Positions 1-21,771 of a DNA stretch of 38,338 nt are shown in pieces. Source of the stretch: Gammaproteobacteria bacterium (GTDB taxonomy: Bacteria; Pseudomonadota; Gammaproteobacteria; Thiohalospirales; Thiohalospiraceae); NCBI GenBank assembly GCA_015490535.1, contig WFXP01000053.1, positions 1 to 38,338 on the forward strand, written 5' to 3'. Positions within the stretch are counted from its first letter, which is position 1. Each line of letters begins with the position of its first letter. Position numbers and translations under genes: made by a program. Under the pieces are notes generated by a model, which made no database searches, was not told the origin of the DNA, and saw only the letters and a list, made by a program, of their open reading frames with translations.

Positions 1-532
1 AGCGGGCATCCTTGTCGAACAGCTCCAGCTCGGTGCGCAGGGCGAAGCCGTTGTTGAAGGCGTACTCCAGCCCGATACCATACGCCAGGCTGAAGTCGTT
101 GACCCTCTCGTAGGGCAGTCCGGTATCGTTCTCCATCCTGGCCGCGCCGGCCTTGCCGAACAGGCCGAAACCGGTGTGCTCCCGGCGCTGCTTGTAGAGG
201 TAATAGAGCGCGCTGAGGGAGAACTCCTTGTAGCCCACCTCATCCGCCGGCGTCATCTCGGCCGCGCCGAGATCGGCGTATTGCCCCTCGACACTGAAGC
301 GCGGGGAGAAATCGTAGCCGAGAAACAGCTTGCCACCGGCGCTGCGCGACTCCTCCACCGTAACCGGTGTGCCGTTGGGATCCGGCTCCAGCTCCGATAT
401 TCCGGCGGCAACACCACCATACCAGCGCTTGGTGAAGCTGTTATCCGCCACGGCGGGAGCCGCGACCCCGCAGAGCAGCAGGGCCGCCGCCAACCACCCT
501 GCTGCCCCTCTCACCTGTCTCCTGATTTCCAT
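1..532 (-). CDS. OmpA-like outer-membrane beta-barrel protein (3' end outside window)
   Basis: Reading from ATG at 532, an open frame runs off the window after about 177 residues. It begins with a basic N-region and hydrophobic core ending near APAVA, a convincing signal peptide, followed by an OmpA/porin-type eight-strand barrel. The motifs WYGGVAAGISELEPDPN, GGKLFLGYDF, LSALYYLYKQ, GLFGKAG and LEYAFNNGFALR are visible. AGGGGAGAG lies about 9 nt before the ATG. The barrel is clearly paralogous to the one at the C-terminal end of the 4205-8098 protein (WYGG, ISEL, GGKLFLGYD, ENxTxLPYxRVND and EYAFxNGFALR are shared). By analogy a proline-rich linker and OmpA peptidoglycan-binding domain should follow beyond the edge, but that is not visible. 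It starts 26 nt after the preceding gene, so the two are probably one transcript. Function beyond outer-membrane anchoring is unknown. Confidence 0.85.
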   Translation of the reverse strand, partial: MEIRRQVRGAAGWLAAALLLCGVAAPAVADNSFTKRWYGGVAAGISELEPDPNGTPVTVEESRSAGGKLFLGYDFSPRFSVEGQYADLGAAEMTPADEVGYKEFSLSALYYLYKQRREHTGFGLFGKAGAARMENDTGLPYERVNDFSLAYGIGLEYAFNNGFALRTELELFDKDAR

Positions 533-558
533 GTCACTACTCTCCCCTGTCACTGCCT

Positions 559-3500
559 TCACCGCGTGCGCTCCTCTCTTCTGGCACGCCGCCGCGAACC
601 AGCCAGATAGAGCAGGGCCGCGCCAAGCATGAGCGGAAACAGGGGATCGAATCCGGCGCGGGGATTGACCGCGCAACCGCCCACACCCTCCAGACCGGTC
701 TGCAGGATCGGCTCCTCCCCATCCGCTGCTGCGATATCTCGGAAATCGGGGGCGCCATCACCGTCACCGTCCGGCAGCGCCAGGGGCCTGCCGCCCCGCC
801 GTGGGGAGACGGCGTCGTCGAGACCGTCCCCGTCCGTATCGACGAAGCCGTCCACACGTCCGTTGCCGTCAGCGTCGCTGCCACCGGCCTCCACCAGGTC
901 GCTCTTGCTGTCTCCGTCCGAATCCAGATCCCGGTAGTCCGGTGTTCCGTCACCATCCGTGTCCACCGGATTCACCCCGGCCCCCTCGGCCCGCCCCTTG
1001 CTGTCCACCTTGGGTGGTCGACCGCTGCCAAGATAGGCGTTGGTGTCGGGATCCGGCAGCTTGGCCTCGATGACATCGGGAATACCGTCGTTGTCGCTGT
1101 CCAGATCCCGATAGTCGGGCACCCGATCACCGTCCGTATCGGGGGGTGGCATGACCCCCGCGCCCGGAGCCAGACCGGTTCCGGAGTCCACTGCGGGCAT
1201 ATCCCGGCCGATGTAGCCGTTCAGATCCGGATCCTGGAGGCCGGCCTCGACGACATCCAGCAGTCCGTCGTTGTCGCTGTCCAGGTCGCGGAAGTCGGGA
1301 ATGCCGTTTCCGCCAATAGCGTCGCCATCGGTGTTGCGCTGGCCATCCTCCACCCCGTCACCGTTGTAATCGGTAATGCCGGAGTCGCTGGAGGTCTCCA
1401 CGGCATCGGCCAGGCCATTGGCGCCGAAGCCGCTGTCGATACGCCCGTCCTTGTCGCGATCCAGCGCCGCATCGTCGGCGCCGGATTCGGTGAGGTCGAA
1501 CAGGCCGTCGTTGTCGCTGTCCAGATCCAGGCTGTCGGATACCCCGTCGCCGTCGCTATCCACTCCGCTCCCGGCCCCCTCCGCAACATCCGGGATGCCG
1601 TCGTTGTCATCATCCAGATCCTGCGCATCCGGAATTCCGTCGCGATCGCTGTCCACCTTCTGGCAGGCCTCGCTGCTGCTGTCGGGAATGCAGGGGTTGG
1701 CGTTGGCGTCATCCTCTTCGTCCATCACCCCGTCTCCGTCGCTGTCCGCAACGGCGGAGTCCAGCGCGTCGATGATGTCGTCCCGGTCGCGGTTCCCGGG
1801 AGCGGCCGGATCGGCACCCACCTCGGCTCCATCCTCCTTGCCGTCGCCGTCGCTGTCCCGGTTGTCCGGGTCGGTCCCCAGACCCTCCTCAACACTGTCC
1901 GGAATGCCGTCCCCGTCGCGGTCACTGGCCGCCACGCAGACCGCACTGGTGGCGTCCGGAATGCAGGGATCGGCGTTGGCGTCATCCTCCTCGTCCATCA
2001 CCCCGTCTCCGTCGCTGTCCGCAACGGCGGAGTCCAGCGCGTCGATGATGTCGTCCCGGTCGCGGTTCCCGGGAGCGGCCGGATCGGCACCCACCTCGGC
2101 CCCGTCCTCCTTGCCGTCCCCGTCACTGTCCCGGTTGGCCGGATCGGTCCCCAGCCCCATCTCCACGCTGTCCGGCAGGCCGTCCCCATCGCTGTCGGTC
2201 GCCACCGCGCAAGCGGACAGATCGCTCTCCTCTCCCACGGCTATGGTGAGCTGCCGGTATCCCGGCAGATCCGACGGCCGCACCGCACGCTGCCGCTCCG
2301 CGCCACCGACGAACCTGACCCTCACCACATGCACCGCATCGGGATCTACTCCGCCAAAATGGGCGAGCGGCGCACCCTGGCTGCCGCGCCCCATGCCGCC
2401 GTTGATCTCCCGCACGCCCGATACGGCGTTGCCGTCGCAGTCATACAGCCGGACGGTGGCCCCCACCGCATCCCGCGCCCCCACGGTGGCGGCAACCTGG
2501 AGATAGTTTCCGTCGTTGCGGGTGTTACGCCACAGCTGCGACGGACTGCCGTTCTGGTTGATCAGCAGATCCATGTCGCCGTCGCGGTCGTAGTCTGCAA
2601 AGGATACTCCCGAGGCGGGCCCGGTGGCGGAAATACCCATGTTCTCCTGCACGAAAGCAAAGCCGCCGCCGTTGAGATAGAGCAGGCTGTTTCCCGGGCC
2701 ACGCGAGGTGAAGAAGAGATCCTCGTCCCCGTCATTGTCCACATCGGCGCACGCCACACCCGCATAGCTGCCACCAAACTCCTGCCGCAACAGGAACCGG
2801 CCCTCTTCGGTCAGCTCGAAGGCACCGACGGTTCCCGCGTCGGTGCGCACCAGATCAAAATCACCATCACCGTCGAGATCGCAGAACACCACCCCCCCTT
2901 TCTGATCGTTTCTGGTGTCCTCATTGATGGCGTCGCTGCGGCTGAAATCGCCCCGGCCGTCGTTGATGAACAGATCCGCTTCGGCGTCCGTATCGCCGGT
3001 GCCGGGCCGGCGCGCATAGAAATCCACATCGCCATCCACATCGAAGTCGGTGGCAGCCAGGTATTCACCGTTCTGTTCCCCGTCGTGAATCTCCAGGTAG
3101 CTGCTCTCGTTCAGCACGCCCGCCTGGTTGAGGTAGATGCGCATGCCGTAGCCGTTGTCCTCGATCAGCAGATCCAGATCTCCATCTGCATCGTGATCGA
3201 TCCAGGCCATTCCCTCCGAATTCCCCGGATTGAACCCCAGCAGGGTGCTGAACCCGTCCGCCTCCCCGGTGGTGTTACGGTAGATCTCCAGCCAGTAGGC
3301 GTGGTTCACCGCCAGATCCACGCGGCCATCGTCGTCGAAATCCCCCCACACCACGGAGCGCGCCGGCTTCACGTTGGTAAGGAACAGCTCCTGCGCAAAG
3401 CTGCCGCCGCAGGCCCCCTCGCCGGTCACCTGCTGACGGTAGAGCACGGTTCCGTCATCGGTATTCTGCGCCACATCGAGGCAGCCGTCGCCGTTGAAAT

Positions 3501-3678
3501 CGGCCCAGGCCACGCCGCCCTGCTTCGCTCCGTCCGCCGCCAGCTGACCGGCCTGCAGCTCAAACGCCGCATGACCCGCAACAGGGGCCGCGGCCAGGAC
3601 CAGCAACACCAGACCTCCACCCGCCGCGGCGGTTGCGCTCCACCGCGATCCGAATCCTGTAATAGGGAGATTACCCAT
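559..3678 (-). CDS. Secreted FG-GAP/ASPIC/thrombospondin-3-repeat protein with Cys-containing C-terminal sorting tail
   Basis: Frame of 1,039 residues from ATG 3678; GGAG lies 7 nt upstream, whereas the longer in-frame start at 3750 has no ribosome site and would bury the signal peptide. Order: signal peptide (about 1-38, ending GHA); seven or more FG-GAP/VCBS-type calcium-loop repeats (about 50-390, such as DFNGDGCLD, DFDDDGRVD, DLDGDGDFD, DYDRDGDMD); an ASPIC/UnbV-like domain (about 388-485, GARDAVGATVRL then INGGMGRGSQG); a long array of thrombospondin type 3 repeats (DSDGDGxPD, about 490-985); then GGC (Cys1002), FDPLFPL, a hydrophobic stretch and an Arg-rich end. That last architecture resembles the JDVT-CTERM/PEP-CTERM-like class of sorting signals recognised by an inner-membrane peptidase; this assignment is inference. 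Likely a calcium-stabilised surface or adhesion protein. It precedes an OmpA-like gene by 26 nt. Confidence 0.85.
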   Translation of the reverse strand: MGNLPITGFGSRWSATAAAGGGLVLLVLAAAPVAGHAAFELQAGQLAADGAKQGGVAWADFNGDGCLDVAQNTDDGTVLYRQQVTGEGACGGSFAQELFLTNVKPARSVVWGDFDDDGRVDLAVNHAYWLEIYRNTTGEADGFSTLLGFNPGNSEGMAWIDHDADGDLDLLIEDNGYGMRIYLNQAGVLNESSYLEIHDGEQNGEYLAATDFDVDGDVDFYARRPGTGDTDAEADLFINDGRGDFSRSDAINEDTRNDQKGGVVFCDLDGDGDFDLVRTDAGTVGAFELTEEGRFLLRQEFGGSYAGVACADVDNDGDEDLFFTSRGPGNSLLYLNGGGFAFVQENMGISATGPASGVSFADYDRDGDMDLLINQNGSPSQLWRNTRNDGNYLQVAATVGARDAVGATVRLYDCDGNAVSGVREINGGMGRGSQGAPLAHFGGVDPDAVHVVRVRFVGGAERQRAVRPSDLPGYRQLTIAVGEESDLSACAVATDSDGDGLPDSVEMGLGTDPANRDSDGDGKEDGAEVGADPAAPGNRDRDDIIDALDSAVADSDGDGVMDEEDDANADPCIPDATSAVCVAASDRDGDGIPDSVEEGLGTDPDNRDSDGDGKEDGAEVGADPAAPGNRDRDDIIDALDSAVADSDGDGVMDEEDDANANPCIPDSSSEACQKVDSDRDGIPDAQDLDDDNDGIPDVAEGAGSGVDSDGDGVSDSLDLDSDNDGLFDLTESGADDAALDRDKDGRIDSGFGANGLADAVETSSDSGITDYNGDGVEDGQRNTDGDAIGGNGIPDFRDLDSDNDGLLDVVEAGLQDPDLNGYIGRDMPAVDSGTGLAPGAGVMPPPDTDGDRVPDYRDLDSDNDGIPDVIEAKLPDPDTNAYLGSGRPPKVDSKGRAEGAGVNPVDTDGDGTPDYRDLDSDGDSKSDLVEAGGSDADGNGRVDGFVDTDGDGLDDAVSPRRGGRPLALPDGDGDGAPDFRDIAAADGEEPILQTGLEGVGGCAVNPRAGFDPLFPLMLGAALLYLAGSRRRARREERTR
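1688..2233 (-). repeat. 91-codon tandem duplication inside the TSP3 array
   Basis: Two adjacent units of 273 bp, about 1688-1960 and 1961-2233, are nearly identical at the DNA level; the block running from the ATCCTC(T/C)TCGTCC stretch to the GGTTCCCGGGAGC stretch differs by only a few bases. Each unit encodes two or three thrombospondin-3 loops plus a Cys-containing segment (DPCIPD or NPCIPD). Identity at third codon positions indicates a recent unequal-crossover expansion rather than selected similarity alone. Confidence 0.85.
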
Positions 3679-3935
3679 AACGAAACTCCATTGCTGTTTC
3701 CGCGTCCGACGAAACCACTGACCGGCAGAAACCGGTTGAGAACCGTTCACCTGGTTTGATGTTCAGGAAAAAAGAGGGGAGGAACGGGGGAATCAGACTC
3801 ACATCCATACCTCCGGCCGCGCAGATCGGCGCCCCGACCCTGGAGATACAGCTCGTTCCCTGTTGCGTAGGGCAGGTTTCATACCACTCCCCCGGTTCCC
3901 TGTGCTGATTATTAGACTCCCTTGACGGAGTACCC

Positions 3936-3952
3936 GTTGTTGCAGGAACAAC
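3936..3952. promoter_or_regulatory. Perfect inverted repeat at the predicted transcription start of the 559-3678 gene
   Basis: GTTGTT-GCAGG-AACAAC has perfect 6-bp arms and a 5-bp spacer. It starts about 9 bp downstream of the -10 hexamer at 3961-3968, a position typical for a repressor operator. A short RNA hairpin at the 5' end of the transcript is the alternative. No regulator is identified. Confidence 0.4.
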
Positions 3953-3960
3953 TGTCGCCA

Positions 3961-3989
3961 AAAATATACAGTTAGCAGGGAAATGTCAA
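3961..3989 (-). promoter_or_regulatory. Sigma-70-like promoter for the 559-3678 gene, with a long leader
   Basis: On the minus strand TTGACA (3989-3984, a perfect -35) is followed after 17 bp by TATTTT (3966-3961), or after 15 bp by TATATT (3968-3963). This predicts a start near 3953 and a leader of about 275 nt before the ATG at 3678. I looked for a riboswitch in that leader and recognised none. The remaining plus-strand stretch 3990-4160 is AT-rich and shows no gene. Confidence 0.65.
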
Positions 3990-4160
3990 GAAATAGTCAA
4001 CAAGAGCTATGGCAAGAATTCCGTGAGAAAAACGTAACGAGTAGCAAAAAGGCTAATATCGCCCCGCAACAAGCGATTCCAGAGAGAAAACGCCGCCAAA
4101 AAAAAGAAAACCAACCACTCTCTTGGCCACGGAAAAGTAACACGCGAGTGTCAAAACAAC

Positions 4161-4201
4161 TTCGCGGGAGAGAGCGACACCAATCGGCTCTCCCCCGCGA
4201 A
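4161..4201 (-). terminator. Rho-independent-type terminator of the 4205-8098 gene
   Basis: Arms 4161-4175 and 4187-4201 (15 bp, one mismatch, 11-nt loop) form a GC-rich hairpin that starts 3 nt after the TAA stop. On the minus strand it is followed by GTTGTTTTGAC, a modest T-tract. It separates this gene from the promoter of the downstream module copy. Confidence 0.75.
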
Positions 4202-4204
4202 CCG

Positions 4205-7200
4205 TTATCTGCCGATCTCGCGGAACTCCACGCGCCGGTTCAGACGGCGTCCCTCGGCGGTATCGTTGCCGGCGACAGGATTGCTCTCGCCGAAGGCTCG
4301 CAAGATCATGCGCTCGCGGGCTATGCCCTTGCTCGCCAGGTAGTCGATCACCGCCCGCGCACGCCTTTCGGAGAGCGCCATGTTGTACGCGTCGGACGCC
4401 CGGCTGTCGGTGTTGCCCTGCACCTCCACACGGGCCCGCGGAACCCTCTGCAGTTCGGCCGCAACCTCGTCCAGGGTGGACCGGGCGGTGGCGGAGAGCA
4501 GGGACGAGTCGGTTTCGAAATAGACTATCCCCAACCTGCCCAGTTTTACCTCGAGCGCCGGCTGCGGTTGCGGCTCATGCTTGGGGGGAGGAGGTGGCGC
4601 AACCGCCACTGGAGCCGGTGCCGGCTCCGGTTGCGGCGCCGGGGCCGGCTCCTCCGGCTTACTGCCGCCGAACCGCTTCAGCAGGCTGAGCGCCAGCAGC
4701 TGGGAATCGGTATCGTAGTAGTCAAACTCGCCGCGCAGCGCAAAGCCGTTGCGGAACGCATACTCCAGACCGGCGCCGAGCATCATGTGGGTATCGTTGA
4801 CCCGCGTATAGGGCAGATCGGTTTGGTTCTCCATCTTGCCATATCCGATACGCCCGAACAGGCCAAACCCCTCATGGGCCTGATGCTGCTTGAACAGATA
4901 GTAGAGCGCGCTCAGGCCATAGTCCCGGTACGCCACATCCCCGCCCGGGACATTCGGATCCGTCGAACCTATTCTGGCCTCACCCTGATCGCTGTAATAA
5001 CCCTCGAAGCTGACGCGCTCGGACCAGTCATACCCGAGGAACAGCTTGCCCCCGCCGCTGCGGGTCTCCTCGTTGGTGTATACCGTGGTGTTGGGATCGG
5101 GCTTCAGCTCGGAGATCCCCACCCCCAGGCCGCCATACCAGCGGCCCTGGAACTCCGTTGCGGCCAGTGCGGGCGGGATCACCATCAGCTGCATGGTAAC
5201 CCCTGCAACGACCAGAGCCAACAAGGGAGATGTGCCCGCCGCACCCCGCCCGCGCAGCAGATAGCCCAGGGCGAACAGTAGCAACAAGGGAAACAGCGGA
5301 TCGATGGAGCGGTTGTTACTTAGCGTACAGCCCAGACCGCCATCCAGACCGGTCTCCAGGCGGGGTGGCTCCTCCGGCCTCTGCCGGTAATCTGGCGTGC
5401 CATTCCCGTCGCTGTCCGGCGGGACCAGACCTCCCGCTGCCAGGGAGGTGGCGAGACCGTTTTGGTCAACCCCGAGGGCACTGCCGCTACCGCTGCCAAT
5501 GAGACCATTGCCATCGGGATCGCTGCCACCGGCCTCTATGACATCGTTGCGGCCGTCATTGTCGGAATCCAGATCGCGGAAGTCCGGAGTGCCGTCACGG
5601 TCGGTGTCGGGAGGCACCAGACCACCGGCGGCAAGCGCTGTCGCGATTCCGGCACCATTCACGCCAAGCGCGCCACCGCTGCCGCTGCCAATCAGGGCGT
5701 TGCTGTCCGGATCGGCTCCGCCAGCCTCAATGACATCGGTGATGCCGTCGTTGTCGCTATCCAGATCCCTGAAGTCGGCCACGCCGTCGGCATCGGTATC
5801 CAGCGGAACACCGCCATTGTATACAACCGGGGTGGAGGAGGTATCGGCTTCCTCCAGAGTGCTGACCAGGCCATTGCTCCCGACCGGATTGGCAGCAGTA
5901 TCGATGCGCCCGGCGCTGTCTATGGCAATACTGGACTGATCGGCACCGGACTCCCGGGCATCCAGAATGCCGTCGTTGTCGCTGTCCAGATCCAGCCGAT
6001 CGACGACCCCGTCGCCATCGGTATCCTCGTCACTTCCGCCGTTCTGCTCGGCGCTGTCCAGGATGCCGTCATTGTCATCGTCGATGTCGTCACCGTCGGG
6101 GACACCGTCGGCATCGCTGTCCACCCCAAACGGAAAGTCGATGGTAGTGTCGGCGACCAGGTTTACATCACGGGAATCGTTCGAGATGGCATACCCCTCC
6201 GGGGAATCAGCAGAATCGACCCGCACCGTATAGCTGCCGCCCACTATATTGCCGAAGGTGTAGCTCCCATCCGCAGCCGTGGTGGTGGAGCCGGCCTGGT
6301 TCCCGGCGCTGTCGATCAGGGTAACATCCACCCCGCCGATTCCGGTCTCTCCGCTGCCGGCCTGCTGGCCATCACCATCCTCGTCACGGAACACGGTGCC
6401 GGAGAGCGTCCAGGTAGCGGGACCCAGGGGGACAAACGGGAAGCTGGTGGTCACATTGGCACCGTTCTGCACCGCGATCTGAAGCGGATTGGCGGTGCTG
6501 GTTACCAGACCGTCGAGAGAGATGCTGCCAGCCTGATCCACATGGAGATAATAGGTGCCGTTCTGAATATCGGCAAAAAGGAACTGGCCGTTGGCGTCGG
6601 TGACCTGATCGCTCCCCACCTGAGAGGTCATCGCCGCATCCCTGTAGAGACGCACGGTCACACCCTGAACACCCTCACCAGGATCCAGGGAGCCGTTGCC
6701 ATCAGCGTCGTTGAATACGCTACCGGCGATCTGCGGCAGATTGAAACTGAAGCGCTGTCCGGAGAGATCCGCGCCTGCAACGGTAACCGCCACGCTCTCC
6801 GTGCCGGTGGTATATCCCGGCCCGGTCAGCTCGGGATCGGCGGCGTCCACCCGTACGATGTAGCTGCCGTCCAGCACCCGGCTGAAACTGTAGCTCCCGT
6901 CAGAACCGGTCTCCAGCGACTCCACCAGCGTATCGTTGGCATCATACTCCCCTGCGGTATCGCCATCGTCCCGATGCAGCCGAACCGTGACCGCCGCGAT
7001 ACCGGTAGTGCCGCTCCCGTCCACCACATCACCGGACACGGTTCTCAGCAGAGTGTTCAGAACGAAATACCCGGCAGTACCGCCGTACATATCGGCATCA
7101 CCGGGACCAGCACCTGCCCTGTACGTATCGCTGGGGAAAGTATTTGGGTCGGTCAGAACGTGGGCGGGGTTGCTCGCCGGATCCACATCCGGGGCAAAGT

Positions 7201-8098
7201 AGGAGAAGCCGTAATAGATCTCCCCCGCGGCCAATCCCAGATCGGCCTGGGAGACGAATGCCAGACCCAGTTGCTCGCTTCCGCCGCCAACCAATGATGG
7301 CGGAACGGAGCTGTCGGAGGTGTGAAGAAAGTCGTTGGTTCTGGGGTTGCCCACAACCCCGTAGCAGATATCGTTGGCTCCACCCGGACATCCCGCACCA
7401 CCAGCATTGACCGTAACAAGAGTGCCGTACGAAGAGGGGTTGCCCGAACTGTCGAGGGCTGTAATGGCCGCAATCTTGACGCTGTTGTTGCCCGACTTCT
7501 CGGTCACCACATGGCCGGCTTTTTCCAGATCCGCCGCCTGCACCGCAGTTATCCCGGCGCTGAATATGAAGTCGACCCGCTCGATGTCCTTGGCCTCGGA
7601 ACCTACATTGTTGAATACATCCAGCGCACCGACATTGATCACCCGCCCCGCCATTACGGCCGCCATGTCGCAACCGGTGCCATCCAGATTACCGGGGAAA
7701 TCGGGCCGATAGTTATTCGTAGTTCCGGTAGTCTCGGCAAACAGGCCACAGGAGGTTCCATTGTTTCTGCGAACCACCCTGACCAGATCCGCTACGCTCT
7801 GGTAGTCATATCTGGTACTGCCGTTGTCCAGCGAAAAGCCGTCGATCAACAGATTTCCGTTGGTACCCGAGCCATCGTCTCCCTGACCCCAGTTATAGGC
7901 GTTCCCGCCCGTAACATAGGTAGCCTGCGCCGCGGCATTACCCGGGGAGGTGTAGATATTGGTAGCCTCCCCCTTGGCCCAAACAGCAGTAGCGGACAGA
8001 GACAGCAATCCTCCGAGCAGCATGGCCGCGGCCGGGGAGGTCAGTGATGAAAAGATGCCTGGATTGGGCAAATCCGGTGAAAAGAGACGGTGCCTCAT
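4205..8098 (-). CDS. Fused TSP3/sorting-tail protein plus OmpA-family barrel and peptidoglycan-binding domain
   Basis: Frame of 1,297 residues from ATG 8098, chosen because GAGGGA lies about 8 nt upstream; the in-frame ATG at 8152 has no ribosome site. Order: signal peptide (1 to about 41, ending AVWA); an unrecognised extracellular domain (about 42-345); three SdrD B-like modules (about 350-650, such as GSVFNDADGNGSLDPGEG and GTVFRDEDGDGQ); thrombospondin-3 repeats (about 657-905); a sorting-tail motif GLGC (Cys924), IDPLFPL, hydrophobic stretch, RGRG (about 920-953); a second signal-peptide-like stretch ending PPALA (about 955-979); an OmpA barrel (about 980-1145); a Pro/Ala/Glu linker; and an OmpA_C domain (about 1185-1297) with GNTDSRASDAYNMALSERRA and GRRLNRRVE. 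The next locus encodes the same two halves as separate genes, so this is a fusion, a precursor, or a lost stop. Confidence 0.85.
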   Translation of the reverse strand: MRHRLFSPDLPNPGIFSSLTSPAAAMLLGGLLSLSATAVWAKGEATNIYTSPGNAAAQATYVTGGNAYNWGQGDDGSGTNGNLLIDGFSLDNGSTRYDYQSVADLVRVVRRNNGTSCGLFAETTGTTNNYRPDFPGNLDGTGCDMAAVMAGRVINVGALDVFNNVGSEAKDIERVDFIFSAGITAVQAADLEKAGHVVTEKSGNNSVKIAAITALDSSGNPSSYGTLVTVNAGGAGCPGGANDICYGVVGNPRTNDFLHTSDSSVPPSLVGGGSEQLGLAFVSQADLGLAAGEIYYGFSYFAPDVDPASNPAHVLTDPNTFPSDTYRAGAGPGDADMYGGTAGYFVLNTLLRTVSGDVVDGSGTTGIAAVTVRLHRDDGDTAGEYDANDTLVESLETGSDGSYSFSRVLDGSYIVRVDAADPELTGPGYTTGTESVAVTVAGADLSGQRFSFNLPQIAGSVFNDADGNGSLDPGEGVQGVTVRLYRDAAMTSQVGSDQVTDANGQFLFADIQNGTYYLHVDQAGSISLDGLVTSTANPLQIAVQNGANVTTSFPFVPLGPATWTLSGTVFRDEDGDGQQAGSGETGIGGVDVTLIDSAGNQAGSTTTAADGSYTFGNIVGGSYTVRVDSADSPEGYAISNDSRDVNLVADTTIDFPFGVDSDADGVPDGDDIDDDNDGILDSAEQNGGSDEDTDGDGVVDRLDLDSDNDGILDARESGADQSSIAIDSAGRIDTAANPVGSNGLVSTLEEADTSSTPVVYNGGVPLDTDADGVADFRDLDSDNDGITDVIEAGGADPDSNALIGSGSGGALGVNGAGIATALAAGGLVPPDTDRDGTPDFRDLDSDNDGRNDVIEAGGSDPDGNGLIGSGSGSALGVDQNGLATSLAAGGLVPPDSDGNGTPDYRQRPEEPPRLETGLDGGLGCTLSNNRSIDPLFPLLLLFALGYLLRGRGAAGTSPLLALVVAGVTMQLMVIPPALAATEFQGRWYGGLGVGISELKPDPNTTVYTNEETRSGGGKLFLGYDWSERVSFEGYYSDQGEARIGSTDPNVPGGDVAYRDYGLSALYYLFKQHQAHEGFGLFGRIGYGKMENQTDLPYTRVNDTHMMLGAGLEYAFRNGFALRGEFDYYDTDSQLLALSLLKRFGGSKPEEPAPAPQPEPAPAPVAVAPPPPPKHEPQPQPALEVKLGRLGIVYFETDSSLLSATARSTLDEVAAELQRVPRARVEVQGNTDSRASDAYNMALSERRARAVIDYLASKGIARERMILRAFGESNPVAGNDTAEGRRLNRRVEFREIGR

Positions 8099-8133
8099 TG
8101 TCGTTCCCTCGCACGATTTCCGATGCGCCGTGC

Positions 8134-8162
8134 ATTGTACAAACAAAGCCATGGTATTGAAA
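8134..8162 (-). promoter_or_regulatory. Candidate promoter of the fused OmpA gene
   Basis: Minus strand TTTCAA (8162-8157), 17-bp spacer, TACAAT (8139-8134), about 35 nt upstream of the ATG at 8098. The -10 matches five of six consensus bases; the -35 is weak. Palindromic element A ends 10 bp upstream of the -35, so its insertion may have replaced upstream control sequence. Confidence 0.4.
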
Positions 8163-12217: not shown

Positions 12218-13126
12218 ATGGCCGAACGAAACATTACCGCCAAGCACCCCTTGCGCGCGCGGCTGGCTCAAGGCACGCTGCGTCTGTCCGCCCTCCTGCC
12301 GCTGCCCCTGAATCACTGGAGCGGTGCCTTCCTGGGCTGGCTTGCGTGGCTGCTACCTGGCAGGGCGCGGCGGGTCACCATGCGCAATCTGGAGCGCTGC
12401 TACCCGGATCTCGACCCGGTGGCCCGCAATCGGCTGGGGCGGCGCAGCCTGCTGGAGACCGGCAAGACCGCCATCGAGATGGGGCCGCTCTGGCTCTGGC
12501 CGGAGCGGCGCATCCGGCGGCTGGTCCGGGGAGTTACCGGAGAGCAGCGGCTGCGGGAGGCCCTGGCCGAGGGTAAAGGGGTGATCGTCGCCATCCCCCA
12601 CCTGGGGTCCTGGGAGATGGTAGGGCTCTACTGCTCCCTGCGCTACCCCATGACCGCCCTCTATCGCCCGCCCCATCTGCCGGATCTGGAGGAGATGGTG
12701 CGCCGGGGCCGCGAGCGGTTCGGCGCCCGGCTGGTACCTACCGGCGCCCGCGGCGTACGCGCCCTGTACCGGAGCCTGGAGAGGGGCGAAATGGTCTGCA
12801 TCCTTCCCGATCAGGTCCCGTCGGCCGGACAGTGGGTGTACGCCCCTTTCTTCGGCATACCCGCAAGGACCATGACCCTCGTATCGCGTCTCACCCGGCG
12901 CTTCGGCAGCAGGGTACTATTCTGCTACGCCGAACGCCTGCCCCGCGGCGGCGGGTTCCACATCCATTTCCGGCCCGCGCCGGCGCAGATCCACAGCGAC
13001 GATCCCCTGCTTTCCGCCAGTCATCTCAATCTGGGGGTGGAGCGGTGCGTGCGTGGTCTGCCGGAGCAGTACCAGTGGAGCTACAAGCGGTTCCGCGGAC
13101 AGGCGGCGGAGGATTTCTACGAATAG
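12218..13126 (+). CDS. LpxL/LpxM-family lipid A acyltransferase (HX4E type)
   Basis: A 302-residue membrane-associated acyltransferase of the late lipid A (lauroyl/myristoyl) family, which adds a secondary acyl chain to a 3-hydroxyacyl group of lipid A precursors at the cytoplasmic face. The catalytic motif HLGSWE is present (His128, Glu133), followed by family blocks [31 protein letters not shown] and [10 protein letters not shown], and the C-terminal [10 protein letters not shown]. Length is normal for the family. An AAGG lies 11 nt before the ATG. The gene converges on a second family member and their 3' ends overlap by 10 bp. Which acyl position or chain it prefers cannot be read from the sequence. 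Confidence 0.92.
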
Positions 13127-14058
13127 GGGGAGGGCTCGCCGCCGGGACGGGTCTTGAACAGGCGCAGCGACCACATGTACTGCTCCGGGTGTTGCCTGAT
13201 CATGCCCTCCAGCTCCCGGTTCATGCGGGCGGTATCGGCCGCCGTGTCTCCGGTGGGGAAATCCTCCAGGGGGGGGGAGAGGATGACCCGATAGCCGCCG
13301 CTCTCCGCCAGATACCAGCTGGCGCAGGGGACCACCGCAGCCCCGGTGAGCCGCGCCAGCCGGCCGAGGGCGGTGATGGTGGCGGTAGGCACTCCAAAGA
13401 AGGGGGCGAAGATCCACTCCCCCCCTTTCACATGGCTCAGATCCTCATCGGGCAGATAGTAGAACATCTCCCCCCTGCGCAGTGCCCGGACCACCGGCCG
13501 CAAACCGGCGCTGCGCAGGAACAGCCTGCCGTGGAAGCGGGTGCGTCCGCGGCTCATGAGCCATTCGATGAGCGGGTTCCTGACCGGTTTGATCATCCCT
13601 ACCGTGGCGAAACGGCGGGTGATGGCGGCGGCACCGAAATCGAGGGCGACGGTGTGACAGGTGAGCAGAATCACCGGCCTGCCCTGCTCCCGGCACAGCT
13701 GCAGGTGCTCCATCCCCTGCACCGTTACCATTCCGTCCAGCCGCTCCTCCCTCCCCCACCACAGTGCCCCGTAGTCCAGCGAGGAGAGAGCCAGGGAGCG
13801 GAAATAGTCCCGCGCCATCCGCTCCCGCCGTTCGGGATCCAGCTCCGGAAAACAGAGCTCCAGGTTCACCCTGACAATGCGCCGCCGGCGGTCGTTGGCC
13901 AGACGGATCAGGTCACCGATCCGGCGGCCCAGGGCGGCGCGCGCGCGCCGCGGCAGAAGGGAGAGGAGCCGGTACAGCCCCAGCCCCAGCCAGGTGGGCC
14001 AGTGACGCGGCGCCAGCAGGCTGCGCGAGAAGCGCGGGCGGTAACTGCCCTCCTCCAT
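13117..14058 (-). CDS. LpxL/LpxM-family acyltransferase (HX4D type), last gene of the pel operon
   Basis: A 313-residue member of the same acyltransferase family. The motif is CHTVALDF, giving His135 and Asp140 (HX4D) in place of the usual Glu; family blocks include MIKPVRNPLIEWLMSRG, YLPDEDLSHVKGGEW, FFGVPTATITAL and a C-terminal EQYMWSLRLFK. It is divergent from the neighbouring 12218-13126 protein, so this is not a recent duplication. The ATG shares one base with the stop of the fructosamine kinase gene (TGATG), which implies coupled translation as the final cistron of the pel transcript. The likely role is lipid A or another glycolipid acylation; the position in a polysaccharide operon leaves room for a non-lipid-A acceptor. 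Confidence 0.88.
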   Translation of the reverse strand: MEEGSYRPRFSRSLLAPRHWPTWLGLGLYRLLSLLPRRARAALGRRIGDLIRLANDRRRRIVRVNLELCFPELDPERRERMARDYFRSLALSSLDYGALWWGREERLDGMVTVQGMEHLQLCREQGRPVILLTCHTVALDFGAAAITRRFATVGMIKPVRNPLIEWLMSRGRTRFHGRLFLRSAGLRPVVRALRRGEMFYYLPDEDLSHVKGGEWIFAPFFGVPTATITALGRLARLTGAAVVPCASWYLAESGGYRVILSPPLEDFPTGDTAADTARMNRELEGMIRQHPEQYMWSLRLFKTRPGGEPSPYS

Positions 14059-14954
14059 CAGCGCAGCTCGGACAGCAGCCGTCCCAGCATCTGCTCCGCC
14101 TGGCGCAGGTAGCCGCCGCCAAACAGGTTCAGATGGTTGAGGATGTGGTAGAGATTGTATAGATCCCGCCGCACCCGATACCCTTCATCCAACGGCCATT
14201 GCTCGTTGTAGGCGGCGTAGAAGCGGGAGGAGAATCCGCCAAACAGCTCGGTCATGGCGATCTCCGCCTCCCGATCCCCGTAATAGGTTGCCGGGTCGAA
14301 GATCACCGGATCACCGGAGTCACTCACCCCCACGTTTCCCGACCAGAGATCCCCGTGCAGCAGCGAGATGGCCGGGGTGTAGCCGGCGAACAGGGCGGGA
14401 AACAGCTCCAGCAGCAGCTCCCCGCGGCGCTGCAGCTCTCCGCCATAACCGTTGTCACGCGCCAGGCGCAGCTGGTAGCCCAGCCGCCGCTCTCTCCAGA
14501 AGTCCACCCAGTCGTCGGCGGGGGTGTTGATCTGGGGCGTGGAGCCGATGGTGTTGTCCCGCCACCAGCCGTAGCTGCTCCAGGAGCTGCGGTGCATCTG
14601 CGCCAGCTCCCGGCCCAGACGCTCGGAGGCGTCCCCCCTCCCGAAAGGGATATACTCGAGCACCAGAAAGGAGCGTCCCTGCAGCGCCCCGTGGCAGATG
14701 GGGGCTGGAGCGGTTACGGTTCCGGTGGCCGCTATCTCCCGCAACCCGGCGGCCTCCGCGGCAAACATATCCTCCCTGTCGGGGGCGTTCAGCTTTGCGA
14801 AGAGACTCCGCCCGTCCGCGCCCACCAGCCGCCACGCCTCGTTGATACAACCGCCACCCACCGGGCGGGCCTCCCTCACCTGGAACGGGGCGCCCGTGGC
14901 GGCCGCAACGCGCGCGGCGATGCCGCTCCAGGGCTGCTCAGCGACGGGCGCCAC
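14058..14954 (-). CDS. Fructosamine/ketosamine kinase family protein
   Basis: A 298-residue protein of the fructosamine-3-kinase/ketosamine-3-kinase family (aminoglycoside-phosphotransferase fold), which phosphorylates ketoamine adducts on glycated amines and so promotes their removal. Visible: Gly-rich VGGGCINEAW, Lys54 in FAKLN, the Brenner motif HGDLWSGN (His200, Asp202, Asn207), and DPATYYGDREAEIAMTELFGG with the metal Asp220. The start is GTG at 14954, 17 bp inside the 3' end of pelG, with only a weak ribosome site, so translation is probably coupled. Its place between pelG and an acyltransferase is unexplained: it may be a hitchhiker, or act on an amino-sugar-derived substrate, which is speculation. 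Confidence 0.92.
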   Translation of the reverse strand: MAPVAEQPWSGIAARVAAATGAPFQVREARPVGGGCINEAWRLVGADGRSLFAKLNAPDREDMFAAEAAGLREIAATGTVTAPAPICHGALQGRSFLVLEYIPFGRGDASERLGRELAQMHRSSWSSYGWWRDNTIGSTPQINTPADDWVDFWRERRLGYQLRLARDNGYGGELQRRGELLLELFPALFAGYTPAISLLHGDLWSGNVGVSDSGDPVIFDPATYYGDREAEIAMTELFGGFSSRFYAAYNEQWPLDEGYRVRRDLYNLYHILNHLNLFGGGYLRQAEQMLGRLLSELR

Positions 14955-16386
14955 GCTCGACTGGAATCACCGGCGGCACCCGCTTGATAGAGAGGTTGTC
15001 CCAGATGAAGGTGCGGTAGGGGAGATCGTCTATGTGGCGCGCCGACAGGTAGTAGGTGACCACAAAGGTCAGCAGGGTGCTGGCGAAGTAGCCGGCCCCG
15101 TAGAACGGGAACCCCATATTCAGACTGACAAGGGTGAACAGCGCGTTGCTCACCAGGAAGAACAGCTGCAGCAGCATGGAGAGGCGCCGGAAGTCGAAAT
15201 AGGCCAGAATGATGAACTGCATAACCAGCAGCACATGGAAAAACGCCCCCAGCACCCCGTAGCGGAACATCCCGATCTGGCTGTAGCTGAAGCCGATCAA
15301 TTCATAGAGCTTGGGCGAGAGCAGCAGCAACACCACCACGATACAGCCCTGCAGTACGATCATGCTGCGCATGCCGCTACTCAACGACGATACGATTCCG
15401 GACAGGTTCTTCCTGATGCGGGCCAGGCTTACATGCTCCGAGATGTCGCGGTAGAAGCGCAGATACTTCAGGAAGAACCCGGTCTCCACGCTGATCACGA
15501 ACATGGCCAGCCCCGGAATTATGGAAAGATAGGCCAGAAACATGGCCGCATCGTAGTCGGAGTAGGAGGGCATGCCGGGGATGATCATCTCCCGCTCCGG
15601 CGCCAGCAGCCACATGAGCCACTTGTCCACCCAAATGGCCAGATTGTAGAACAGGCCCGCCAGCGCCAGCTCCCAGTAGCGTTTGAAATAGCGGGCGAAA
15701 CCGAACAGATTACGCGCATCCGCACGGTACTCGGAGAAGACATAGGCGATCAGCGCAAACATGATCAGGGCCAGACCGATGGAGAACCCCATCAGCATCC
15801 CCGCCAGGGAGTAGCTGCCTGCAAGCGCGCTGGCCAGAAGAAAGGAGGCGATGAGACCGAGCAGGAAGGTCCAGGAGATCACGTTGTAAGCCTTGAGCGC
15901 GGTAAGATAGACCGCGACCACCCACAGACAGGCAACCAGAAAGTAGTTGACCATCGCCGCTATTCGCACCGACGACTCCAGCTCCACATACCAGAGATAG
16001 AACCAGCCGACAATGGGAAACTGCAGCAGAAACACCACCACCAGTGAGCCCAGCAGCATGCCCGGCACGGCGTCGGTGGAGCGGGAACCATCCTTGCGGA
16101 CCTCGTTGGCGCGGAACACCAGATCCGCCAGGTAGCGGGTCACCACCATGAACACCGGCCCGGTGAATGCCAGCGAAAAGGCGAAGTTGTAGATGATGAT
16201 CAGGCGGAACTCGGCGATGGTCTGGTAGCCGGCGACCCCGCTCACCAGGATGATCATGAACAGCACCAGGATGGTCAGTATCCAGGGCCCCGCCGTCACC
16301 CAGGCCGAGTAGAAGAACCCCTTGGCGATCCCCAGCAGATCGTCGCGCTGCATCAACCTGCGCAGTCGGAAACCGACACCGGCCAT
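14938..16386 (-). CDS. pelG: PelG, inner-membrane Pel polysaccharide transporter
   Basis: A 482-residue multi-spanning membrane protein of the MOP (flippase-like) superfamily, with about 12 hydrophobic segments starting near residue 26 (FFYSAWVTAGPWILTILVLF). In Pseudomonas, PelG with PelD, PelE and PelF forms the inner-membrane synthase/translocation complex. Family-typical content includes GVGFRLRRL at the N-terminus and GLFYNLAIWVDKW in the middle. The ATG at 16386 overlaps the pelF stop by one base (TGATG), the expected gene order for pel operons. The conserved position directly after a PelF glycosyltransferase makes the assignment firm. Confidence 0.95.
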   Translation of the reverse strand: MAGVGFRLRRLMQRDDLLGIAKGFFYSAWVTAGPWILTILVLFMIILVSGVAGYQTIAEFRLIIIYNFAFSLAFTGPVFMVVTRYLADLVFRANEVRKDGSRSTDAVPGMLLGSLVVVFLLQFPIVGWFYLWYVELESSVRIAAMVNYFLVACLWVVAVYLTALKAYNVISWTFLLGLIASFLLASALAGSYSLAGMLMGFSIGLALIMFALIAYVFSEYRADARNLFGFARYFKRYWELALAGLFYNLAIWVDKWLMWLLAPEREMIIPGMPSYSDYDAAMFLAYLSIIPGLAMFVISVETGFFLKYLRFYRDISEHVSLARIRKNLSGIVSSLSSGMRSMIVLQGCIVVVLLLLSPKLYELIGFSYSQIGMFRYGVLGAFFHVLLVMQFIILAYFDFRRLSMLLQLFFLVSNALFTLVSLNMGFPFYGAGYFASTLLTFVVTYYLSARHIDDLPYRTFIWDNLSIKRVPPVIPVERGARR

Positions 16387-17906
16387 CAGCTTGCCTCCTC
16401 CAGATCCACCACCTCTGCGGAACCGCGCCGGAACAGCTCCTCATAGAGCTCCCGGTAGGTGCGATCGAAATTCGCCTTGTTGTAGTAGCGGCGGACGCGC
16501 TCACGAATCCCCTCGCTGCAGCTGAGGTACCATTGAGGTACGGTCAGCAAACGCTCCACCGCCTGCGCCGTGGCAACCGGGTTGGAGAGGGGGGTGATGC
16601 TGCCGCCATGGGGGGGTGGATCGGGATCGTGGTGATCGGAGAGCAGGATCTCGCGGCAGGCTCCGACATCGGTGGCGACCACCGGGATCCCGGCCGCGCC
16701 GGCCTCCAGAATCACCAGCGGCTGACCCTCGCTGATACTGGTCAGCACCAGCACATCGATCCTTCCCAGATACTCCTCCACCCGCACCCGACCGGTAAAG
16801 GTTATGACCCTCTCCAGCCCTATGTGCTCCACCATGTCCAGGCACTCCTCGAAATAGGACGGCTCCTCGTCGGTGGGACCCATCACCAGCGCCTGCAGAT
16901 CGGGAATGCTCTCCTGCAGCGTTGCGCAGGCACGGATGAAGGTCTTGACATCCTTGATCTGCACCACCCGGCCAATCAGCGCAATGGTCGGCGGCGTGCG
17001 ATCCTCGCGCCGCGGGATGGCCGCATACCTCTCCACCTCCACGCCATTGGGAATAACCATCATCTTGCTCTCCTGGGCGCCATCCATAAGCTGAAACGCC
17101 TGGTTGCCCTCGAACAGGGTGATGATCTTGTGGGCGGCGCTGTAGCAGCAGCGGGAGTAGGCGGTGAACGCCCGGACCCACATATCGCTCAACTGGTGGG
17201 GGAGGCGATGCACGCTCAGGCTGTCCTCGTCCATCTCGTGAAACCAGTCCGCCATGGCTATATCTATGCGCCGCTCATTGGTGTAAATACCATGCTCGGT
17301 TACCACCACCGGACTGCCGGTCTCCAGCCCGGCCCGGGCGGCGAACAGCCCCGCGTACCCGGTGGAGGGGGAGTGATACAGGCGCGCGAACGGCATATCC
17401 GCCAGCAGCATCGAATAGATCCCCGCAAACAGCGCCCGCCAGGACCAGAAGTAGTCCAGAAACGACGCCTCCGGATAGGTGCGCTCGTACATGCGCACCA
17501 GCATCTCCCAGGCGTGGCGCGAATTGAGCAGCACATGCTCCCCGATCCTGGCCCGGTAGGGCGCCAGTATGGAGCGCACCTCGTCCAGCTCGTCCAGCCC
17601 GCCATCCACCAGCAGGCGCAGCATGGGCTCCTCCAGCCTGGCCAACAGCCGCCTCTCGTCCGCCACGCGGCGCTCCCCGCTGGGAATCCGCTGCAGAACT
17701 ATGGTAGTGGTGCCGACCACATTGCCCGGCAACTCATACCGATAGGTGGTATCGGCGCCCGGAGCAACCAGAAATACCAGATGGAAATCCAGATGGGACT
17801 GCGCCTTGATGAGCTCATGGGTCCATGCGGACACGCCCCCGGGAACGAACGGATAGCTCCCCTCCAGAATGATGCATACATCCGCCTGTGTCTTGCCTGT
17901 TTTCAC
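16386..17906 (-). CDS. pelF: PelF, cytoplasmic GT4 glycosyltransferase that polymerises Pel
   Basis: A 506-residue glycosyltransferase, close to the 507 residues of P. aeruginosa PelF. In Pel synthesis PelF uses a UDP-activated N-acetylhexosamine to polymerise the chain at the cytoplasmic face. Visible: an N-terminal EGSYPFVPGGVSAW glycine-rich donor loop, GT-B architecture, VIPNGVEVERY at the domain boundary, and the GT4 signature EGQPLVILEAGAAGIPVVATDVG. The start codon is GTG at 17906, supported by GAGGA 7 nt upstream. A 40-bp gap separates it from pelE, the widest gap after pelE and before the end of the operon. Confidence 0.97.
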   Translation of the reverse strand: MKTGKTQADVCIILEGSYPFVPGGVSAWTHELIKAQSHLDFHLVFLVAPGADTTYRYELPGNVVGTTTIVLQRIPSGERRVADERRLLARLEEPMLRLLVDGGLDELDEVRSILAPYRARIGEHVLLNSRHAWEMLVRMYERTYPEASFLDYFWSWRALFAGIYSMLLADMPFARLYHSPSTGYAGLFAARAGLETGSPVVVTEHGIYTNERRIDIAMADWFHEMDEDSLSVHRLPHQLSDMWVRAFTAYSRCCYSAAHKIITLFEGNQAFQLMDGAQESKMMVIPNGVEVERYAAIPRREDRTPPTIALIGRVVQIKDVKTFIRACATLQESIPDLQALVMGPTDEEPSYFEECLDMVEHIGLERVITFTGRVRVEEYLGRIDVLVLTSISEGQPLVILEAGAAGIPVVATDVGACREILLSDHHDPDPPPHGGSITPLSNPVATAQAVERLLTVPQWYLSCSEGIRERVRRYYNKANFDRTYRELYEELFRRGSAEVVDLEEAS

Positions 17907-17946
17907 CGTTCGATCCTCTGGCTACAGGGAAACTTCGGCCGCCCCG

Positions 17947-19053
17947 TCAAGCCGTTGGAGCACCACGCCCCATCCACATGCGCACCGCGTCGGCAATACG
18001 TGACCGCCGTTTGCCGGGGCCATCCACGAACGTATTGCCATACTCCCGCAGCAGCTCCCGCAGCTCCTGAAACCGCCCCAGCCGGTAGAGGCACTCCGCA
18101 TACCAGAGCATGAGCTGCGGTTCGCCCTCGTGATATTGCGGCGTCCGTTGCAACCACTCGATGGCCCGCTCCAGCTCTCCGGAACGCACCAGCAGACGCC
18201 CCAGAGCCAGCGCCGCCTCACGATTGTCCGGCTGCAGCTCCAGCACCTTCTCATATGCCTGCCGGGCCCTGCTGCGGTTGGTCTCTTCACGATCCTCCTC
18301 CAGCAGGCCGGTAAAGGCGTAGTCGTCGTAGAGCCTGGCCTGGTGCAGCAGCCGGTCGATGTCGTCGGGAGACTCGGCAACCGCCCTGTCCGCCTGCATG
18401 GTCTTGTCCTGGAATCCCTTCTCGATATTGGTTATAAGGGAGGCGGCCAGAATGCGGATGGAGTTGTCCGAATCCACCAGGGCGGCCCGCATGGCGGGGG
18501 CAAAGGAGGGCTGGAAGTGCTTGGCCATCAGCACCACCGCATCACGCTTCTGCTGCTGGGTGCCGTTGGCCAGAATGTCCCGGAAGGAGTCCGGCACGTT
18601 GGCCCCGGAGAGCCTGCTGTGGGCCTCGAGAAACTCCGCCAGCTCACCTATCTCGTCGGACTTCTCCTTGGGAAACAGGCCGCTGTACCAGTCGCTGAAT
18701 TCGGTACTGAAGCGCCGGTACAAGATGTGCATGAGTATGGTAAACATGGTCCCAAGCACCCCTAACGGACCAAATGCCGCGGTGGCCACCAGCAACAGGT
18801 AAACCACCCGGCTTCCCATCTCCGGACAGCGGAAGATCTTCTGCTGCCAGAACAGCAGCAACAGCACCAAGGCTATGTGCAGCATGGTGGCGTACAGTAT
18901 CGGCAGGATCTCCGCGAAGGTGACAAACAGCAGCAACGTCTCCAGCAGCAGCGTCAGCAGCATCACCAGTGCGAAGTGAACCCTGCACCCGAAGGTTTTG
19001 TCCCGCTGCTGCGGCAAATCCAGATATCTACTGCTTACTCTCGGTGCTGTCAT
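17947..19053 (-). CDS. pelE: PelE, inner-membrane TPR protein of the Pel synthase
   Basis: A 368-residue protein from ATG 19053. Two hydrophobic hairpins near the N-terminus (VHFALVMLLTLLLETLLLFV, then ILYATMLHIALVLLLLFW and a later VVYLLLVATAAFGPLGVLG) are followed by a soluble helical region with tetratricopeptide-like repeats (ARQAYEKVLELQPDNREAAL and following). In P. aeruginosa, PelE has this arrangement and binds the PelD/PelG complex. I prefer 19053 because GAGAGG and GGGA lie upstream. The alternative ATG at 19089 overlaps the pelD stop and lacks a ribosome site, but would add only 12 residues. Confidence 0.9.
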   Translation of the reverse strand: MTAPRVSSRYLDLPQQRDKTFGCRVHFALVMLLTLLLETLLLFVTFAEILPILYATMLHIALVLLLLFWQQKIFRCPEMGSRVVYLLLVATAAFGPLGVLGTMFTILMHILYRRFSTEFSDWYSGLFPKEKSDEIGELAEFLEAHSRLSGANVPDSFRDILANGTQQQKRDAVVLMAKHFQPSFAPAMRAALVDSDNSIRILAASLITNIEKGFQDKTMQADRAVAESPDDIDRLLHQARLYDDYAFTGLLEEDREETNRSRARQAYEKVLELQPDNREAALALGRLLVRSGELERAIEWLQRTPQYHEGEPQLMLWYAECLYRLGRFQELRELLREYGNTFVDGPGKRRSRIADAVRMWMGRGAPTA

Positions 19054-19081
19054 AGCGGTTCCCGCCTCTCGTGCGAAACCT

Positions 19082-20488
19082 TCATTCATCCGGGGTGTGC
19101 AGATCTTCTATCCGTACCGACCAGGAGGCATCACGCAGCCGGGTATCACTCTCCTCCTGGAGCGCCTTGAGCAGCCGCTCCTCCACCACACGCGCATTGC
19201 GCGTCGGGGTGGCCGGCAGAATGATAGTGAACTCCCGTCCGTTGTTGCGGCGATCAAAGGCCAAATCGGTATTGCGCAGCACCCTCTCCACCGCCGTGCT
19301 GAGCGCCACCGGGGCATGGGCGCGTGCCTCCGGTGGCAGCTCGCGATAGTTCTGCAGCGAGATGTCGATCTGCGCCAGGGCAAACTTGTGACGCCGCGCC
19401 AGGGAGGTGAGAAAGGCGGTCTGCCTCCGATAGTAGTTGGAGGAGAGAAACAGACCGCTGTCATCCAGTACGCTGTTCTCCCGCGCGGTGTGGAACTTCT
19501 GTGAATTGCCGTAGACGGTGCCTATCCATTCACACACCACCTCGAAGTTCTTGATGGTGGTCCAGCCCAGCTCCACGAACTCCAACTCCTCGATCTTGAG
19601 CATGCCGATCACCTCGCCGGTATCGGCATTGATTAGCGGCCCGGCCAGCACGCCCTGCCTGCCGAGGATCTTCTCATCCTCTTCACTGGCTATGTTCAGC
19701 ACGCGGCGCCGCGCCACGATCTCCTGAAACAGGGGGTGCTCGGCCCCTATCACCCGCAGGTAGTCATCCTTGCCGGTCCATCCGGTATGCACCGCCGCCT
19801 CCAGAACATTCTGTCCCAGCATGAACACGGAGGACTTCTGCGGATTCATCACCGCGCGCACCATGTCCATGATGCTGAACAGCACCTTGCCGGAATCCAG
19901 CTGCTCCAGGGACTTGACCGCCTGGTGCATGGAGATGACGGTGCGCATCTGGCCCGCCACACGCGCCTCCAGATCGCTCTTGATCTCCTGCTGACGCTGG
20001 TAGGCGCTGGCGATGATACGCTCCTGCTCCCGGGCCTCCTCCAGCTGCCTGCGCAGCCGCTCCTTCTCGCGCAGGTGGCGCATGCGCAGCTCGCCCAGCA
20101 GCACGGCCGCCACGAACCACATCAGCGGTCGCCGTACCACATCGAACAGGTAGCCGTAGAGATCCTGGTTCAGGGTCTGTTCCGGCATATGCCCCGTAAG
20201 CAAAACCACGCTGGCCGCCAGCGCCGCCAGCACCCCTTCCGCGGTACCGTACTGGACGGTCACCAGCAAAACGATTATCCAGAACGGGTGCGGGGTAACG
20301 TACCAGAAAGAGTCGGCATCGAATACCAGCCGGTCCAGAAGAATGGCTACGACAAAAAAGAGCGCAATCTCCAGGAGCGCGGTGCGCCTTACACCCAGAA
20401 TCCTGACCGGATCCCGCCCCTCTTCCCCGGGTCCGGGACGCGAACCTTCCCGGATCCTGTCCAGCCGCTGCACGGTAACGCCCTTCAT
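19082..20488 (-). CDS. pelD: PelD, c-di-GMP receptor of the Pel complex
   Basis: A 468-residue inner-membrane protein. About four membrane segments lie within 38-130, then a helical/coiled-coil region (LREKERLRRQLEEAREQERI), a GAF domain (about 190-330) and a degenerate GGDEF domain. The c-di-GMP inhibitory-site motif RxxD is intact as R405-N-T-D408, followed by DRRNNGREF in place of an active GGDEF loop; in P. aeruginosa the corresponding arginines and aspartate bind c-di-GMP and switch on synthesis. The domain should therefore be a receptor and not a cyclase. The ATG overlaps the preceding stop by ATGA. No diguanylate cyclase gene lies within the window, so the second messenger must come from elsewhere. 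Confidence 0.96.
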   Translation of the reverse strand: MKGVTVQRLDRIREGSRPGPGEEGRDPVRILGVRRTALLEIALFFVVAILLDRLVFDADSFWYVTPHPFWIIVLLVTVQYGTAEGVLAALAASVVLLTGHMPEQTLNQDLYGYLFDVVRRPLMWFVAAVLLGELRMRHLREKERLRRQLEEAREQERIIASAYQRQQEIKSDLEARVAGQMRTVISMHQAVKSLEQLDSGKVLFSIMDMVRAVMNPQKSSVFMLGQNVLEAAVHTGWTGKDDYLRVIGAEHPLFQEIVARRRVLNIASEEDEKILGRQGVLAGPLINADTGEVIGMLKIEELEFVELGWTTIKNFEVVCEWIGTVYGNSQKFHTARENSVLDDSGLFLSSNYYRRQTAFLTSLARRHKFALAQIDISLQNYRELPPEARAHAPVALSTAVERVLRNTDLAFDRRNNGREFTIILPATPTRNARVVEERLLKALQEESDTRLRDASWSVRIEDLHTPDE

Positions 20489-21045: not shown

Positions 21046-21047
21046 CT

Positions 21048-21704: not shown

Positions 21705-21771
21705 CACGATTCATCCTTTGTGTAGAAACAGTCCATGACTCACCCCCTGGGTAATGGGGAACAATCCAGAT

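Follow-up and report, generated by a model that had tools for sequence, protein, structure and literature searches.

A repeat-rich passenger protein and an OmpA-family barrel encoded as a fused or split module in gammaproteobacteria

We describe a gene module that pairs a repeat-rich passenger protein with its own OmpA-family barrel. In sequence comparisons the module has a recurrent architecture and is conserved. Fused and split forms of the genes interchange, sorting peptidases co-occur with them, and a short passenger motif is associated with the barrel partner. We consider it probable that the products form a two-component surface module, with the passenger docked on the barrel, and that two cuts in the fused precursor release the pair of proteins that the split genes encode.

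The fused and split copies of the module

The window, 38,338 nucleotides in length, is the entire contig C53 of a draft genome (2.1 Mb, 171 contigs). It carries two copies of the module, with all of the module genes on the minus strand. The features are as follows.

4205-8098, minus strand: fused gene, 1,297 aa when read from Met 8098, with the same open frame in five congeners; in order, a signal peptide, an SdrD_B-like and Asp-rich repeat passenger, an internal JDVT-type sorting tail, a second signal-like segment, an 8-strand barrel and an OmpA domain
5339-5359, minus strand: LETGLDG partner motif of the fused passenger, predicted to form a short beta strand
5246-5341, minus strand: internal JDVT-CTERM sorting tail GLGCTLSNNRSIDPLFPLLLLFALGYLLRGR (NF033191, 32.9 bits; cut-off 27)
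5159-5254, minus strand: basic loop and second signal-peptide-like segment ending PPALAA, in frame from tail to barrel
4664-5143, minus strand: OmpA-type beta barrel of the fused gene (PF13505, 64.1 bits; 8 barrel strands in the model)
4235-4522, minus strand: OmpA peptidoglycan-binding domain of the fused gene (PF00691, 78.4 and 84 bits in two scans; Foldseek matches to OprF/Pal)
559-3750, minus strand: split passenger, 1,063 aa, with FG-GAP repeats, weak TSP3 repeats and a C-terminal JDVT-CTERM tail
685-705, minus strand: LQTGLEG partner motif of the split passenger, located before the tail
589-687, minus strand: JDVT-CTERM tail of the split passenger (NF033191, 30.0 bits; cut-off 27)
1-532, minus strand: OmpA-family barrel gene of the split copy, encoding a separate signal peptide and truncated at the edge of contig C53 (window base 1)

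These ORF coordinates agree with a preliminary description of the window, which had reported one fused copy in a 1,297-residue frame and one split copy with a 26-nt gap. The gap spans 558-533 and is followed by the barrel gene ATG at 532. Counted from its first ATG, at 8152, the fused ORF (8152-4205) encodes 1,315 aa. The same description had called the two barrels paralogous and the sorting tails Cys-containing. The barrels are 59% identical, and both tails score above the JDVT-CTERM cut-off. Its TSP3 label held only in part. The split passenger consists chiefly of FG-GAP repeats, with weak TSP3_bac matches. The fused passenger gave three SdrD_B-like matches, together with Asp-rich repeats, but no TSP3 match above cut-off.

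According to the preliminary description, a stop codon near position 5230 in the fused copy, if resequencing revealed one, would count against its reading. Reading of the junction found no stop codon near 5230, and the junction is likewise uninterrupted in five congeners (G002, G003, G004, G006 and G007). The internal Cys tail, CTLSNNRSIDP, is almost invariant across the fused genes of the congeners. At each junction a basic loop is followed by a second hydrophobic stretch, with an AxA-like end just before the barrel. Among the six congeneric junctions no start codon for a translation restart before the second signal looks conserved; hence, a single polypeptide is likelier than a restart. Between the window and G002, dN/dS was 0.07 for the motif and tail, 0.11 for the barrel and 0.57 for the passenger, values that rest on few counts. 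The second signal segment drifts in sequence between the same two genomes, and signal peptides generally do so. In the fused genes of these two genomes (window 4208-8152 and L061:2027-6274 of G002), the passengers were 43% identical over the aligned part and the barrels ~94% identical. Either fast passenger change or domain replacement could account for the low passenger identity.

The genome encodes one MrtJ (NF033192, 115.3 bits; cut-off 75), on contig C71. Immediately upstream of it lies the C-terminal part of an OmpA gene, which stops at the contig edge. G002 shows the order intact on a single contig, C129: fused gene, split passenger, OmpA gene, MrtJ. Contigs C53 and C71 are thus probably neighbours. 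The split barrel gene probably continues on C71 with the OmpA domain and is then followed by MrtJ; about 40 residues of the split OmpA protein would be missing between the contigs. The matching sorting peptidase, proposed as a check on the module, is therefore present in the genome, and in congeners it lies directly downstream of the pair. An OmpA gene immediately precedes MrtJ in G000-G005, and outside the genus the same adjacency occurs in G054, G194, G267, G088, G316, G326, G111, G155, G075 and G189. At many other MrtJ loci there is a JDVT protein and no OmpA gene. MrtJ was not found in the draft genomes G006 and G007, though both carry Cys-type fused genes. Within the genus, a conserved 240-residue protein is encoded directly after MrtJ (L060:3475-4194, minus strand; matching ORFs in L040, L041, L044, L061 and L067), and it matched no Pfam family.

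The remainder of the window includes genes of other kinds. A PelF glycosyltransferase (424.6 bits) is encoded within 14000-28600, minus strand, and its neighbours resemble a pel exopolysaccharide operon. They include a TIGR01370-type glycoside hydrolase, a weak LptE-like lipoprotein match and several large unnamed proteins. An LpxL/HtrB-type lipid A acyltransferase (13117-14058, minus strand) lies between the pel-like genes and ORF 12316-8471, which is methionine-synthase-like, a name given from its sequence alone.

Fused and split forms across the gammaproteobacteria

We used 19 barrels as queries against 369 genomes drawn over the gammaproteobacterial class, counting matches with E<1e-15 as strong. 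Strong barrel matches occurred in 40 of the 369 genomes, and these 40 span more than 20 family codes. By their junctions, 42 ORFs were classed as fused and 44 as split-like. The fused ORFs are spread over ~14 family-level groups. For tree building, cut or doubtful ORFs were dropped and one contig-cut fused gene was added, leaving 42 fused and 33 split forms. The tree requires 10 changes between the fused and split states, with at least 6 forced by starred branches. Conserved adjacency of passenger and OmpA gene, which the preliminary description had suggested counting, is thus borne out across gammaproteobacteria.

Orthologues in sister species can differ in state, as in the pairs G213/G086 and G062/G304. 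The split genes of G086 and G304 break within the basic cytoplasmic loop; the two ORFs are 11 nt apart in G086 and overlap by ATGA in G304. At split loci, candidate starts commonly overlap by 4 bases. Two hydrophobic segments were found in 41 of the 42 fused ORFs, a loop with at least 2 R/K residues in 41 and an AxA-like site in 39. Passenger domains vary across the family and include SdrD_B, FG-GAP, Ig-like, LRR, invasin D3 and cadherin-like types.

A barrel scan of a collection of genome contigs gave one true relative, the Gammaproteobacteria MAG HyVt-486, with the same sequence as G002:C129; it is the nearest relative that has a name, and the other three matches were OmpA-only or chance. 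The HyVt genome series derives from hydrothermal vents. A draw of 399 genomes over the phylum gave a single match apart from the window's own, so prevalence depends on sampling. Barrels without a motif-bearing passenger occur in G001:C141, G071 and G267. The gene on G001:C141 (L066, 10836-12074) encodes a barrel and OmpA domain akin to the fused clade, with no passenger upstream, and is possibly an orphaned module half.

The partner motif, LxTGLxGxG, lies just before the sorting tail and was scored as [LIV]xT[GAS][LV]xGxG. Among 60 tails found by the JDVT and GlyGly models, the motif was present in 14 of 14 followed by a barrel and in 2 of 46 without one, where the pattern had been shaped on some loci overlapping the 14. 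It is present in 37 of the 42 fused ORFs and is weak or absent in the other 5. Split loci carry it in 29 of 34 cases, and 2 of the remaining 5 have too little upstream sequence. The motif precedes the Cys or GlyGly, on the presumed cleavage side, and should therefore stay on the mature passenger.

AlphaFold2 models were made of the segment from tail to C-terminus for the window protein and for a distant GlyGly-type protein, with 31-34 alignment rows. Each has a barrel of 8 strands, a pair of hairpin helices and an OmpA domain. Foldseek matches of the modelled segment were OprF, Pal and OmpA. In both models a strand is predicted at exactly the first three motif residues (LET and VLT), with confidence above that of the surroundings, and a 3-residue strand (YTR and FKQ) is predicted in loop L3, between beta5 and beta6. 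L3 is extracellular in the OmpA topology. The models suggest that the motif strand may pair with the L3 strand, at a pLDDT of only ~68 for these segments.

Sorting tails in the family are of two kinds. Those of the window have the Cys and DP of JDVT. With the JDVT-CTERM model (cut-off 27), internal tails scored 28.6-37.3 bits in the window and in five congeners. The non-Cys tails are Gly/Ser-rich and GlyGly-CTERM-like; most fall below the TIGR03501 cut-off of 15.5, and some score 16.2-29.5 bits. Of the 40 barrel genomes, 39 have rhombosortase, compared with 85 of 329 others (Fisher p=1e-19). MrtJ is present in all 14 genomes that have a Cys tail but in only 5 of the 25 in which no such tail was seen (p 8e-7). 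The genome sets were compiled by hand from tables, and relatedness inflates both p-values. T2SS GspD is present.

A proposed model for display of the passenger

We propose that the module works as follows. The passenger, a repeat-rich and fast-evolving surface protein ending in LxTGLxGxG and a sorting tail, would be exported. The tail would then be removed by an intramembrane peptidase: MrtJ for Cys/JDVT tails and rhombosortase for GlyGly-like tails. The trimmed passenger would reach the cell surface, probably via type II secretion, on which MYXO-CTERM and GlyGly proteins depend (PMC11980579). There, the motif on the mature passenger may dock on the extracellular side of the barrel. By binding peptidoglycan, the OmpA domain would tether the complex to the wall. 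Split genes would form an operon from which passenger and barrel are made as two proteins. The fused precursor would cross the inner membrane as a hairpin, comprising the tail segment, the basic cytoplasmic loop and the second signal segment. Cleavage by the sorting peptidase and by signal peptidase I would then yield the two proteins made by the split form.

The fate of the fused protein can be read in another way. The preliminary description took the fusion as a physical tie, and a protein that stays whole would indeed be anchored covalently by the barrel and OmpA domain at its C-terminus. Such a reading accords with the single open frame of 42 genes, with the lack of a conserved internal start codon and with the stability of the fused form over many genera. 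We nevertheless think it distinctly unlikely. Nearly all fused genes keep the two hydrophobic segments, the basic loop and the AxA-like site, and sister species encode the same segments as two genes with the break in the loop. Since the tail transmembrane segment, loop and second signal are kept, and since sister orthologues split in the loop, the fused gene most likely gives rise to the same pair of products as the split genes. On steric grounds also, a barrel that begins ~10 residues past an uncut inner-membrane segment could not be expected to reach the outer membrane. That the fusion reflects a sequencing or assembly error, with loss of a stop codon, scarcely merits belief. In its favour, the assembly is a draft of many contigs, and the window stops within the split barrel gene. 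Against this, five congeners keep the open frame through the junction, which excludes the lost stop, and the fused ORFs recur in ~14 family-level groups.

A different alternative concerns the contact between the two proteins. The sorting tail alone might anchor the passenger, through a lipidated Cys or a modified GlyGly end, with the OmpA gene merely an operon-mate. Many JDVT proteins are encoded beside MrtJ with no OmpA partner, so the tail needs no barrel partner. Hence, of the obligate partnership suggested by the preliminary description, the conserved pairing stands (42 fused and 33 split forms) but the obligate nature does not. Anchoring by the tail alone is still rather unlikely in our view. 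LxTGLxGxG goes with the barrel partner in both of two unrelated sorting systems, recurrent fusion preserves 1:1 dosage, and TraA/TraB offers a precedent for direct partnership (PMC12045341).

The docked two-component module can also be stated more generally, and to this we would give slightly less than an even chance. It would be a display module independent of the sorting enzyme, in which LxTGLxGxG at the mature C-terminus of varied passengers is recognised by barrel L3, and about half of its members would be made as a polyprotein cut by two membrane proteases. A specific peptide and a barrel loop are thus offered as a candidate means of holding sorted surface proteins to the outer membrane. 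As bacterial polyproteins the fused forms would be a rarity, and the fused and split sister orthologues are natural test pairs. The passenger evolves far faster than the tail and barrel, as expected for a cell-contact or adhesion protein.

Comparison with known systems

The preliminary description knew of no system with this arrangement; the published record says otherwise. In Myxococcus xanthus outer membrane exchange, the gene for the sorting-tail adhesin TraA is followed by that for TraB, with a barrel and OmpA domain, and the ORFs overlap by 4 bases (PMC3325183, PMC12045341). TraA and TraB are reported to form a 1:1 complex in which the second head of TraA sits on the TraB barrel (PMC3325183, PMC12045341). 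The division of labour is the same as in the window module, and the 4-base start overlap is also common in the gammaproteobacterial loci. The domains differ. Where TraA combines a PA14-like/variable domain with Cys-rich repeats and MYXO-CTERM, the passengers of the window combine SdrD_B or FG-GAP/TSP3 repeats with JDVT-CTERM. Pfam and NCBIfam scans of the window proteins found neither the TraA variable/PA14-like domain nor MYXO-CTERM. Membership of TraAB was rejected, because the TraB model NF033763 scored 82.9 bits against a cut-off of 700, on the OmpA domain only.

The fused layout also has a precedent. MXAN_5598 of M. xanthus has an adhesin, an internal MYXO-CTERM, a barrel and an OmpA domain in one frame (PMC11980579). 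Its authors suggest a gene fusion, propose processing of the N-terminal part and present the case as atypical (PMC11980579). The gammaproteobacterial fused forms, conversely, have JDVT or GlyGly tails, are common and interchange with split forms. Given TraA/TraB and MXAN_5598, the arrangement itself is not new (PMC11980579, PMC3325183). In the literature we did not find a description of how broadly it occurs in gammaproteobacteria, of its use with two other sorting systems, of how often fused and split forms interchange or of the LxTGLxGxG motif.

The sorting systems themselves are familiar. The JDVT-CTERM/MrtJ system is described as MrtJ with one JDVT protein (PMC11980579, citing Haft 2024). 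The window module resembles it in having tails above cut-off and MrtJ in the genome and operon. It differs in the OmpA barrel gene between the two, in a second presumed substrate with an internal tail and in LxTGLxGxG on the tail. The split tail is at the C-terminus but the fused tail lies ~345 residues from the protein end, so only the split copy counts as an ordinary member of the system. Similarly, sister modules with Gly-rich, non-Cys tails occur in rhombosortase genomes and resemble GlyGly-CTERM proteins, some of them above cut-off. The window tails, with the Cys and DP of JDVT, do not; most of the partnered GlyGly-like tails are below cut-off, and in the described form the tail is not internal. 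PdsO (TIGR03789), a sortase-associated OmpA-like protein by its model description, is likewise linked with a surface-sorting enzyme of its own. Assignment to PdsO was rejected at 67.3 bits against a cut-off of 152.2. The literature on PdsO and on MtsC/MtsD, when searched, yielded nothing of use. With its PF13505 barrel and PF00691 domain, the product of the fused gene belongs among the OmpA-family barrels and anchors. The module thus carries a layout of the TraA/TraB type beyond myxobacteria, into many gammaproteobacteria and two more sorting systems.
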